Shown here one piece after another: positions 46,506-50,599 of a stretch of DNA of 64,000 nt. The DNA comes from Pseudonocardia sp. T1-2H (GTDB taxonomy: Bacteria; Actinomycetota; Actinomycetes; Mycobacteriales; Pseudonocardiaceae): assembly GCF_038039215.1 (NCBI RefSeq), contig NZ_JBBPCL010000001.1, forward strand, positions 868,001 through 932,000, given 5' to 3'. Within the stretch, counting starts at the first letter, position 1. Each line of letters starts with the position of its first letter. The notes under the pieces are model-generated. The model did not search any database and had not been told where the DNA came from. It worked only from the letters and a program-made list of their open reading frames with translations. The translations under genes and the position numbers were made by a program.

Positions 46506-46702
46506 GGGAGGGATCGTAGCGAGCTGAATCACATGATCGGGTGACGATCCCGTGCGGCCGATCCGGTGATGTCCGGCTGCACCCCGATCACCCTGAGCAA
46601 GGCCAGCGCCTCCGCCGCGGTTCGTGCGCCGCAGCCTGGTACCGCGAGTCCCGGGCTGCGGTGGGCCTGGCGGCCGGCACCGCCGGGGCCGACGCTGGAG
46701 AC

Positions 46703-47414
46703 ATGAGCGACACGACCTACGCCCTGGTGACCGGGGCGAACAAGGGCCTCGGCCTGACGACGGTGCGACGGCTCGCGGAGCTGGGGTGGACGGTCCTGCT
46801 CGGACCAGGGACGCCGCCCGCGGCGCGGCGGCCGCCGCGGGCCTGGCCGGGCTCGACGTGCACGTCCTCCCGATCGACGTCACGTCCGACGAGTCGGTGG
46901 CCACCGCGGCGAAGCGGGTCGAGGGCTCCTACGGCCGGCTCGACGTCCTGGTGAACAACGCCGGCATCACGGGCCCGCACGTGGCCGCCGCGGACACCGG
47001 CGCCGACGACCTGCGCGAGACCTATGAGACCAACGTGTTCGGGCCGGTCCGGGTGACCCACGCGTTCCTCCCGCTGCTGACCCGCTCCGCCGCGCCGCGA
47101 ATCGTCATGGTGTCCAAGGCATGGGGTCGATCGCGGTGACGAGCGACCCGTCGCGGTTGGAGTCGCGCCTGGTGGGGCTGACCTACCCGTCGTCGAAGAC
47201 CGCCCTGAACATGATCACGACGCAGTACGCGAAGGCGCTGCCGGGGATGCGGGTCAACGCCGCGGACCCGGGTTACACGGCGACGGACCTCAACGGGCAC
47301 AGCGGGTACCAGACCGTCGAGGAGGGGACGGACGCGATCGTCGCCCTCGCCCAGATCCCGCCGGACGGGCCGACCGGGACCTTCGTCGACCGGAACGGCC
47401 ACGTGCCCTGGTAG
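46703..47414 (+). CDS. Short-chain dehydrogenase/reductase, two frameshifts
   Basis: About 238 residues when repaired. The NAD(P) motif is ALVTGANKGLGLTTVRRLAE. After VLLG the frame shifts near 46803-46806, and the family sequence resumes as LDVHVLPIDVTSDESVA and LDVLVNNAGITGP. After RIVMVS near 47113-47120 it shifts again and ends with the catalytic YPSSKTALNMITTQYAKAL. Two single-base losses explain the span (3n+1). It is probably intact in the organism. It resembles carbonyl-reductase-like SDRs. The ATG follows GGAG. Confidence 0.82.
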
Positions 47415-47472
47415 GGCCCGCGCACGAGCGGCGCAGTCGCAAAACGGGGTGCGGCTCGACCTGACGGGCCCC

Positions 47473-47485
47473 TAACATCCGATCC
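47473..47485 (+). promoter_or_regulatory. Leaderless promoter of the macrolide glycosyltransferase leader
   Basis: TAACAT (47473-47478) is followed by 7 nt and a GTG at 47486. An AAAA run at 47441-47444 stands upstream of the weak -35 region, a layout seen at WhiB7-activated resistance promoters. The WhiB7 link is inference. Confidence 0.55.
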
Positions 47486-47512
47486 GTGATCCAGAAGCAG
47501 CTGTACGGCTGA
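47486..47512 (+). CDS. Eight-codon leader peptide upstream of the macrolide glycosyltransferase
   Basis: GTG ATC CAG AAG CAG CTG TAC GGC TGA encodes MIQKQLYG. The GTG has a perfect leaderless -10 spacing, so it would be the first codon of the mRNA. It ends 12 nt before a strong hairpin and 75 nt before the glycosyltransferase start. The layout of short peptide, hairpin and resistance gene is that of ribosome-mediated attenuation, in which drug-stalled ribosomes on the peptide alter the downstream structure. No frame or length is conserved by other means, so the call rests on position. Confidence 0.55.
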   Translation: MIQKQLYG

Positions 47513-47523
47513 GAACTCCGCCG

Positions 47524-47549
47524 CGGACCCGCCGTCACCGGCGGGTCCG
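47524..47549 (+). terminator. 11-bp GC hairpin between leader peptide and glycosyltransferase
   Basis: CGGACCCGCCG (47524-47534) and CGGCGGGTCCG (47539-47549) pair perfectly around TCAC. It lies wholly inside the 5' leader and could act as attenuator or hide the ribosome site until the leader ribosome stalls. A long T run is absent. Confidence 0.65.
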
Positions 47550-47586
47550 TCCCCGTGCTCTCGTTCGTACGACTTCTGGAGAACCC

Positions 47587-48756
47587 GTGTCCCACATCTT
47601 CATGGTCAGCGCCGGCGCCCACGGCCACGTCAACCCGGGCCTGCCGGTGATCGCCGAGCTCGTCGAGCGCGGCCATCGCGTCAGCTACGCGATCCCACGG
47701 TCCTTCGCCGACGTCGTCGCCTCGACGGGCGCGACCCCGCTCGTCCACACGTCGAGCCTGCCGGACGAGACGCGCGGGGAGCAGTGGCCGAGCGACCCGA
47801 TCACCGGCATGTCGATCTTCGCCGAGGACGCCGCCGAGGTGCTCCCGCAGCTCGAGGCCGCTCTCGCCGCCGACCGGCCGGACCTGGTGCTCTACGACAT
47901 CACGGGCTACGCCGGCCGGGCGCTCGCCCATCGCTGGAACGTCCCCCTGGTGCAGCTCTCGCCGTCGATGGTGGCGTGGGAGGGCTTCGAGGAGGACATG
48001 GGCGAGGCGCTCGCGTTCCGGCGGGACCCGCGCTTCGTCGAGTACCGGGAGCGGTTCGCGGCCTGGCTCGACGGGCTGGGCATCGACCTGGACCCGGACA
48101 CCTTCAGCGGACGGCCGCCGCGGTGCGTCGTGCTGATCCCGCGGGCGCTGCAGCCGCACGCGGACGACGTCGACGAGAAGGTCTACACCTTCGTCGGGCC
48201 GTCGCTGGACCGGCGTCCGCACCAGGGGGACTGGCCGGAGTCGGAGAAGCCGCTCGTGCTCGTCTCGCTCGGCTCGGCCTACAACGACCGGGCGGAGTTC
48301 TTCCGCGCGTGCGTCGCGGCGTTCGGCCCGTTGCCGTGGCAGGTCGTCCTCGCGATCGGGCCGCACACCGATCCGGCCGCGATCGCCGAGCTGCCGCCGA
48401 ACGTCGAGCTGCACCGCTGGGTACCGCAGCTCGCCGTGCTGCGACGGGCGTCTGCGTTCGTCACGCACGCGGGGATGGGCGGCTGCTCCGAGGGGCTCCA
48501 CGAGGGCGTCCCGATGATCGCGGTGCCACAGGCGGTGGACCAGTTCGGCAACGCGGCGATGCTGCAGGAACTCGGCGTCGGCGTGCATCTCCCGGCCGAG
48601 GAGGCCACGCCCGAGGCGCTGCGGGAGGCCCTGCTGACGCTCACCGGCTCGCCGGACGTGGCCGAACGCCTGGCCGCGATCCGGGACGAGCTGCGCGCCG
48701 CGGGCGGAGCCGCGGCGGCGGCGGACATCGTCGAGGCGCAGCTCCCGACCTCGTGA
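47587..48756 (+). CDS. mgt: Macrolide glycosyltransferase (MGT family, GT1)
   Basis: 389 residues, a GT-B fold. The N-terminus HIFMVSAGAHGHVNPGLPVI is the acceptor domain start. The C-terminal nucleotide-sugar signature is HRWVPQLAVLRRASAFVTHA, GMGGCSEGLHEGVPMIAVPQ and VDQFGNAAMLQELGVG. This is the OleD/OleI-like resistance glycosyltransferase group, which inactivates macrolides by glucosylating the desosamine 2'-OH. GTG 47587 follows TGGAGAA. Control is probably through the leader peptide and hairpin just upstream. It runs convergent to a VOC gene. Confidence 0.92.
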   Translation: MSHIFMVSAGAHGHVNPGLPVIAELVERGHRVSYAIPRSFADVVASTGATPLVHTSSLPDETRGEQWPSDPITGMSIFAEDAAEVLPQLEAALAADRPDLVLYDITGYAGRALAHRWNVPLVQLSPSMVAWEGFEEDMGEALAFRRDPRFVEYRERFAAWLDGLGIDLDPDTFSGRPPRCVVLIPRALQPHADDVDEKVYTFVGPSLDRRPHQGDWPESEKPLVLVSLGSAYNDRAEFFRACVAAFGPLPWQVVLAIGPHTDPAAIAELPPNVELHRWVPQLAVLRRASAFVTHAGMGGCSEGLHEGVPMIAVPQAVDQFGNAAMLQELGVGVHLPAEEATPEALREALLTLTGSPDVAERLAAIRDELRAAGGAAAAADIVEAQLPTS

Positions 48757-50071: not shown

Positions 50072-50599
50072 TCATGCCGGGCCCCCTCGGTCGTCGTCGT
50101 AGCTGCGGCGGAATGCCGCGCGGGCCCGGACGAGCAGCGCCTCGGTGGCGTGCACCGTCCGGCCGAGCAGGTGCGCCACCTCGGCGACCGCGAGGCCGTC
50201 GAGGTACCGCAGGGTCAGCGCGGCGCGGTGCTGCGGGCTCTGCCGCGCGAGGACCTCCCGCGCCACCAGGGCGTCGAGCTCGGCGTCCCAGGGGTCGTCG
50301 ACGTCCTCGGCGCCGCCGTCGAGCACCCGGAGCCGGCGGTCCTGGACGTCCAGGGCCCGCCAGTGATCGACGAGCTTGTGCCGGGCGATCCCGACCAGCC
50401 AGCCGGTGCTGACGTCCGGGCCCGGCCTGCGCCGGCACGCCTGGACCGCGGCGAGGAACGTCTCCGCCGTGAGGTCCTCGGCCAGGGTTCGCCGGCCGCA
50501 CCGCGCGAGCAGGTAGCCGTAGATCTCGGGCAGGGCCGTGTCGTACAGCGTGAGCAGCGCGAGGCCCGGGTCGGGCTCGACCTGCTGCGGACCGCTCAC
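50072..50599 (-). CDS. ECF RNA polymerase sigma factor
   Basis: 175 residues. Region 2 is YDTALPEIYGYLLARCGRRT, then LAEDLTAETFLAAVQAC. Region 4 is HRAALTLRYLDGLAVAEVAH and LLGRTVHATEALLVRARAAF. The linker is about 40 residues. GTG 50599 has a weak ribosome site. There is no classical anti-sigma gene next to it; the downstream gene is a triple VOC protein. It probably belongs to the actinobacterial ECF groups that occur with VOC or YCII partners. Confidence 0.9.
   Translation of the reverse strand: MSGPQQVEPDPGLALLTLYDTALPEIYGYLLARCGRRTLAEDLTAETFLAAVQACRRRPGPDVSTGWLVGIARHKLVDHWRALDVQDRRLRVLDGGAEDVDDPWDAELDALVAREVLARQSPQHRAALTLRYLDGLAVAEVAHLLGRTVHATEALLVRARAAFRRSYDDDRGGPA

Follow-up and report, generated by a model that had tools for sequence, protein, structure and literature searches.

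To our knowledge, few classes of macrolide-arrest peptide have been worked out, and these are mostly the erm leaders of Firmicutes, in which IFVI is an arrest end. Actinomycetes are the source of many macrolides. In chloramphenicol attenuators of the cat-86 type, the stem that occludes the Shine-Dalgarno sequence is built in part from codons of the leader. In the published excerpts that describe ermC/ErmCL and ermB/ErmBL, the ribosome-binding site of a macrolide-resistance gene lies in an mRNA structure that is opened by a drug-stalled ribosome on a short leader. The R-x-R arrest motif is reported for ErmDL with telithromycin and, less strictly, with erythromycin (excerpts of PMC8298421). Erythromycin is also reported to stall the ribosome at the stop codon of MsrDL, the peptide MYLIFM encoded before the ABC-F gene msrD (excerpts of PMC10314930). 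Leaderless leader peptides (trpL1, leuL, ilvL and others) are described for the amino-acid attenuators of Streptomyces lividans (excerpts of PMC8079986). The consensus given for WblC/WhiB7 promoters is GAAAWY, 3 bp, TKGMNN, 16-19 bp and TANNNT, with transcript starts mostly 7-8 bp past the -10 (excerpts of PMC7157823). The literature comparison also drew on excerpts of PMC12421871, PMC12121999, PMC11550727, PMC10201436, PMC10219788 and PMC8274638.

The window (the whole stretch of Pseudonocardia DNA that was analysed, 64,000 nucleotides) comes from a genome of 7.0 Mb. It encodes a macrolide-family glycosyltransferase of 389 aa (mgt; 47587..48756, on the + strand like the other features of this locus, with a GTG start), preceded by the Shine-Dalgarno sequence GGAG (47578..47581). 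The protein scores 412.4 bits against TIGR01426 (macrolide family glycosyltransferase; cut-off 260) and 502.2 bits against NF033129 (macrolide-inactivating Mgt), below the cut-off of 700 for that family. Its closest solved structures are oleandomycin glycosyltransferases, and macrolide inactivation is its probable function. Just 5' of the locus (46624-47410) is a gene that by eye belongs to the short-chain dehydrogenase family, with an apparent frameshift near 47120-47139 relative to the homologous stretch of L008. In L008, L096 and L113 (a close relative, mgt stretch 95-97% identical), dehydrogenase-like sequence enters mgt at about codon 92 and no leader is seen between; this fusion is either a deletion or an assembly artefact.

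We identified an eight-codon leader ORF, MIQKQLYG (47486..47512; GTG ATC CAG AAG CAG CTG TAC GGC TGA), recognised by its sequence, its conservation and a profile match. It begins 101 nt 5' of the mgt start. The sequence-only reading of this DNA had described a leaderless ORF encoding this peptide, then a hairpin and then mgt, and all are present where it placed them. Its comparison of an AAAA run upstream of the -35 with WhiB7 promoters also holds. The run (47441-47444) is part of the box CAAAAC (47440..47445), which agrees with GAAAWY at 5/6 positions and lies 3 bp 5' of the -35 hexamer GTGCGG (47449..47454; 3/4 defined positions of TKGMNN). With a spacer of 18 bp to the -10 hexamer TAACAT (47473..47478), the promoter scores 11/13 on the published WblC/WhiB7 consensus, with which it thus agrees. 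A computational promoter and terminator scan returned no hit. The -10 ends 7 nt before the leader GTG, so the transcript is expected to begin at or next to this start codon. The same genome encodes a whiB7-like gene (L109), the product of which is a Whib-domain protein with GVWGGE and the AT-hook RGRPSK, residue motifs that we take to mark WhiB7; its upstream region carries AAATCGGTTGTGC. The mgt promoter is probably under WhiB7 control.

A lone ORF of eight codons is unremarkable, and the significance of this one lies in its conservation across loci. We gathered mgt-family genes by three partly overlapping searches of 60, 397 and 394 genomes, and added extra upstream stretches. Upstream regions were taken in the 397-genome search for matches of at least approximately 304 bits; weaker paralogues there and in the 60-genome search were left out save L027-L030, as were four listed matches of the 394-genome search. 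The resulting 155 loci exclude L008, L011 and L025, where the start of the gene is absent or coincides with the end of a contig. They include L096, which is the same place as L008 and has no usable gene start, and also L087, L092 and L169, the starts of which are doubtful due to a stop codon soon after the assumed gene start and which are counted as without leader. The 250 nt 5' of each gene were scanned for an ATG or GTG ORF of 5-12 codons beginning 6-8 nt after TANNNT or CATGAT. The latter variant of the -10 (3/40 of the LY loci defined below) was admitted after L016 and L018 had been seen, and shuffles were run under the identical rule.

Leaderless ORFs of this kind are present in 56/155 upstream regions (mean 0.88, maximum 4 in 60 rounds of dinucleotide shuffles), and 99/155 regions have no leader by the scan rule. 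Two peptide ends, set up as classes after the peptides had been seen, together account for 53/56 leaders: hydrophobic-Tyr-x-stop (LY) in 40/155 loci, with 0 in 60 rounds of shuffles, and R-x-R (plus up to three residues) in 13/155 (shuffle mean 0.10, maximum 1). The remaining 3/56 are outside both. For example, the leader MHLFFL, shared by L040 and L042, falls outside both classes; L142 carries an LY leader, which is absent from the 39-locus LY set of some analyses below, and L029 has none. The 40 LY leaders represent 33 distinct peptides of 7-9 codons (e.g., MIQKQLYG, MIQQQIYG, MIQQLYG, MAQLPLYL, MVLELLYA, MPRQFYL, MHIFQIYG and MYLQQIYG), and 28/40 end in Q-(L/I/F/M/V)-Y-x. The residue before Tyr is Ile in 18, Leu in 14, Phe in 6 and Met and Tyr in one each. 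The stop codon is TGA in 34 and TAG in 6. Comparison of the sequences indicates that the conserved part of the leader is the C-terminal (Q)(L/I)Y-x-stop, instead of codon 4, which the sequence-only reading had picked for mutation. R/K-x-R/K is absent from the window leader, where Lys occurs once and Arg not at all.

The promoter is shared as well. The mean WhiB7-type promoter score of 39 LY loci is 10.10, versus 7.45 with the upstream part shuffled, and the distance from the end of the -10 to the leader start is 7 nt in 29/40 LY loci and 6 nt in 11/40 (under a search rule that admitted 6-8 nt). A profile of promoter and leader matches the window leader at 42.5 bits (E 4.9e-12), where the same place (L001) is among the 28 training sequences.

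A CGAGACG...CGTCTCG-like palindrome is often found at the promoter of mgt-family genes without a leader (L020-L022, L026, L116, L117-L145). It lies within 130 nt upstream in 25/29 of the loci L117-L145, which come from the 394-genome search. The palindrome suggests a repressor-controlled alternative to the leader.

The minimum-energy fold of the leader RNA is one long hairpin. The perfect 11-bp hairpin of the sequence-only reading exists as 11 Watson-Crick pairs and one G-U (47523..47550; 12 pairs, 47523-47534 with 47539-47550, loop of 4, without a T-rich tail), but it is only the tip of this longer structure, which reaches the Shine-Dalgarno. The 5' arm of the predicted base stem (47490..47514) consists of leader codons 2-8 and the stop codon, and the 3' arm (47559..47580) extends into the GGA of the Shine-Dalgarno. 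The pairs join leader TCCAGAAG (47490-47497) to CTTCTGGA (47573-47580, including the GGA), TGTACGG (47502-47508) to 47565-47571, and TGAGA (47510-47514) to 47559-47563. The fold of 47487-47600 is stabler than 200/200 dinucleotide shuffles (z -4.57). Within GGAG, both of the first G residues are paired in the predicted free RNA, the A is paired with probability 0.9 and the last G is unpaired. Thus, the fold predicts that the mgt Shine-Dalgarno would be sequestered in RNA structure without drug. No Rfam family matched in the window at the gathering score.

Sequence comparison shows that both arms of the base stem vary among relatives. When 18 leaders were aligned with MAFFT, RNAalifold found zero common pairs. 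This alignment appears to misplace the 3' arms, and an alignment-free partner-swap test was therefore used, in which each leader is paired in turn with the 32 nt that precede its own gene and with the corresponding stretches of other loci, and the duplex energies are compared (20,000 permutations; loci are treated as independent, ignoring shared descent). In the first run (25 loci, including three LFL leaders and one FFL leader), the mean was -16.40 kcal/mol for own partners versus -12.52 for swapped partners (z -6.5, 0/20,000). Thirteen dereplicated loci gave z -5.83 (0/20,000), and all 40 LY loci, with gene starts chosen anew on the Shine-Dalgarno match and kinship ignored, gave z -9.47 (0/20,000). 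Own partners rank within the best third for 39/40 LY loci, the exception being L154 (39th of 40). L023 and L070 ranked 21st and 23rd of 25 with the first gene starts, and 5th and 1st of 40 after re-picking. Within the 39-locus LY set, leaders more than 135 nt from the gene (15 loci) gave z -4.11, and near leaders outside the order (6 loci) gave z -2.87 (63/20,000). Ranked among all windows of the same length in its own 5' region, the leader pairs best in only 6/39 LY loci, and so is not singled out in this way. These comparisons, with the predicted folds, support specific pairing of the leader coding RNA with the ribosome-binding region of its own gene. Conservation of the leader had been set beforehand as the point on which the proposal could fail. 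The peptide end proved to be kept (LY in 40/155 loci), and pairing with the leader's own Shine-Dalgarno region to be specific.

We computed the cost of opening positions -15 to +3 of mgt, with a ribosome represented as coverage of the leader and 10 nt more. For the window, covering the leader lowers the predicted cost from 14.8 kcal/mol (free RNA) to 4.7. The mean over the LY loci (n=40) goes from 10.0 to 6.6 kcal/mol, with a drop of at least 2 in 22/40 and a rise in 7/40; free RNA with swapped leaders, as a control, costs 7.9 kcal/mol. Among LY loci of the genus Pseudonocardia, the cost falls by at least 2 kcal/mol in 9/11. Since weaker local pairs take over, the probability that GGAG itself is unpaired increases only modestly when the leader is masked (from 0.25 to 0.29 for the window; mean 0.22 to 0.33, higher in 25/39 LY loci). 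The opening costs thus favor a candidate ribosome-opened switch for the window and for 9/11 of the Pseudonocardia loci, against which stands the modest change at GGAG; for several distant loci, the predictions are equivocal.

We consider it likely that the leader is a translational attenuator, in which a drug-stalled ribosome frees mgt. The WhiB7-type promoter would yield a transcript starting at the GTG of the eight-codon leader. Without drug, a ribosome would initiate at the 5' end, complete MIQKQLYG and depart, and leader codons 2-8 would pair with the mgt Shine-Dalgarno stretch around the apical hairpin, leaving mgt untranslated. A macrolide (or like-acting drug) in the tunnel would cause a stall near the leader end, at the Tyr/Gly codons or the stop codon. 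Because the stalled ribosome would sit on the anti-Shine-Dalgarno codons and cover them, the mgt ribosome-binding site would stay open and the glycosyltransferase would be made. We infer the stalling, the identity of the drug and the induction of mgt; the ErmDL-type R-x-R arrest motif of sister mgt loci points to macrolides as the signal. The earlier proposal that a stalled ribosome changes folding and releases mgt stands as an interpretation supported by sequence comparison, but the responsive element is likely the base stem between leader and Shine-Dalgarno and not the 11-bp hairpin.

Control could also be exerted on transcription, with the apical hairpin acting as a terminator without U-tract and the stalled ribosome blocking termination, perhaps jointly with translational attenuation. 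The two are reported to act together for cplR, and whiB7/wblC itself is described as controlled by transcription attenuation, in each case in published excerpts. The folds of near relatives also show a strong apical hairpin. Against this, no terminator-like site was detected in 47000-48000 and no T run follows the hairpin, no competing antiterminator appears among the folds examined, and it is the Shine-Dalgarno stem that covaries among LY loci. We regard transcription attenuation as unlikely for the window leader.

The R-x-R leaders (MRLR, IRMR, VRIR and like, at L048, L053, L056, L062, L066-L068, L072, L073, L076-L078 and L080) may fit a transcription route better. Their partner-swap test detects no own-partner pairing (13 loci: z +0.66, 14,846/20,000; first run with 14 loci including L069: z +0.33, 12,393/20,000). 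Masking the leader raises their mean opening cost from 8.9 to 12.0 kcal/mol, with a rise in 12/13 loci. As they do not pair with the Shine-Dalgarno and as masking makes opening more costly in the model, these leaders may regulate by another route, perhaps transcription. LY-type and R-x-R-type ends occur at the same position before mgt-family genes of different clades, and so constitute a natural comparison of two sensors.

The leader might instead sense amino-acid shortage, or slow translation in general, and not a drug in the tunnel. In favor of this, every LY leader has the Tyr (by the class definition; 39 TAC and 1 TAT), and whiB7/wblC uORFs are reported, in published excerpts, to respond to amino-acid starvation too. 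But the window leader has only a single codon for Tyr and lacks a run of regulatory codons, the residue before Tyr varies across the 40 LY leaders, the downstream genes are of antibiotic type (glycosyltransferase and the ABC-F gene described below) and the drug-arrest motif R-x-R is found at sister loci, so that we find this reading very improbable. Least probable of all is that the mini-ORF and hairpin are incidental and only the WhiB7-type promoter controls mgt, for while such a box by itself could confer drug induction and 99 of the 155 loci do without a leader, the peptide ends are conserved across several families, LY ends never arise in shuffles and own-partner pairing is far beyond permutation.

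As candidate identities for the element, an intrinsic terminator, a tyrosine attenuator and a chance ORF were set aside, based respectively on the lack of a U-tract, the single Tyr codon, and conservation together with own-partner pairing.

Leaders of the LY type are not confined to mgt-family genes. The profile of promoter and leader (sequence only, 28 loci) was searched over 296 and 41 genomes, and 29 of the 49 listed loci were inspected; the profile was trained on loci that it later matched. Among the matches listed, most end short of the end of the leader in model coordinates, and many such short matches in the 29 inspected loci are WhiB7-like promoters of ordinary genes. One full-length match among those listed (L188) precedes a second mgt-like gene of one genome, and L196 is the leader of the L142 mgt-family gene. 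Also among the matches listed, L214, from the genus of the window, has the leader VPEYQLYL before an ABC-F gene, the product of which best matches the TlrC/CarA/OleB/SrmB family in NCBIfam (273.4 bits, under the cut-off of 800). In L216, from a second genome of that genus, the listed match VPRYQLYL is followed only by a short ABC-F-like fragment. In the window itself, a weak partial profile match (13.9 bits) is located at 50515-50572 on the - strand, just inside the start of an ECF sigma-factor-like gene, and is probably due to chance.

Four of the matches listed (L192, L197, L199 and L207, in four genomes of one genus, which we take to be Streptomyces) are FQIYE, FQMYE or PIYE leaders before DUF6243 genes, assigned by Pfam for the L199 protein and by likeness for the other three. 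A family search identified DUF6243 in 48/61 genomes of this presumed Streptomyces. An LY leader (FQIYE, LQIYE or PIYE) is present at 23/30 DUF6243 loci examined (none in shuffles on 18 loci). Three loci (L228, L251 and L257) have a near form in which Asp or His replaces Tyr, and 4/30 have no leader by the scan rule. By eye, leader GTTCTTCC can pair with GGGAGAAC at the Shine-Dalgarno in several of these loci. Among four folds, some show the GTTCTTCC:GGGAGAAC pairing and that of L232 does not. The partner-swap test (n=15, z -0.81) is uninformative here because the leaders are nearly identical. The presence of these leaders suggests a role for DUF6243 in the response to ribosome-targeting antibiotics.

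On balance, we favor the view that (Q)(L/I/F)Y-x-stop defines an undescribed class of drug-arrest leaders in Actinomycetes, which would be leaderless, transcribed from WhiB7-type promoters and encoded by codons that double as anti-Shine-Dalgarno, and which would govern genes unrelated to one another (mgt-type, ABC-F and DUF6243). Being compact and shared by several families of actinomycetes, such a class would supply a new arrest sequence for study of the ribosome. With LY leaders, WhiB7-regulated resistance would gain a post-transcriptional level of control, and DUF6243 a clue to its function: if the view is correct, it is a ribosome-antibiotic response protein.

Like the ermC and ermB attenuators, the window locus has a short leader ORF and a (predicted) structured ribosome-binding site of a macrolide-resistance-type gene. 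Unlike in those systems, the Shine-Dalgarno is predicted to be bound by the codons of the leader, within a single long hairpin. Further differences are the apparently leaderless start, the glycosyltransferase as the gene product and the peptide end, QLYG-stop in place of IFVI or RLR. Placement of leader codons in the predicted Shine-Dalgarno-masking stem is shared with the cat-86 type, from which the locus is distinguished by its gene, drug class and peptide, its leaderless start and its WhiB7-type promoter. The closest parallel to ErmDL and other R-x-R (+x+) leaders is provided by the leaderless leaders before mgt-family genes of other clades that end in R-x-R (13/155). This motif is missing from the window leader, and the leaders that have it show no pairing with the mgt Shine-Dalgarno.

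LY-x-stop leaders resemble MsrDL in being very short and rich in hydrophobic and aromatic residues, and stalling at the stop codon, as in MsrDL, is a plausible model for them by analogy. Unlike these leaders, msrD uses transcription attenuation with a terminator and has UAA as the stop codon, whereas the 40 LY leaders use TGA or TAG. With the whiB7/wblC attenuator, described in published excerpts as an actinobacterial, drug-responsive uORF, the locus shares regulon type and promoter. A Rho-independent terminator is reported there in those excerpts, in contrast to the window, where none was found in 47000-48000. The S. lividans attenuators, as described in excerpts, also have leaderless actinobacterial leaders, and a leaderless start is hence not new in itself; those leaders differ in serving amino-acid genes and in being rich in the regulatory amino acid. 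In the open-access literature, we found no description of a leader of an actinobacterial mgt gene or of a QLYG or QIYG leader. Leader-peptide attenuation of macrolide resistance is well known, and leaderless leader peptides are described in actinobacteria (excerpts of PMC8079986). What appears, provisionally, to be new is the LY-x-stop class, its WhiB7-type setting, its occurrence ahead of mgt, ABC-F and DUF6243 genes and the second role of its codons as anti-Shine-Dalgarno.
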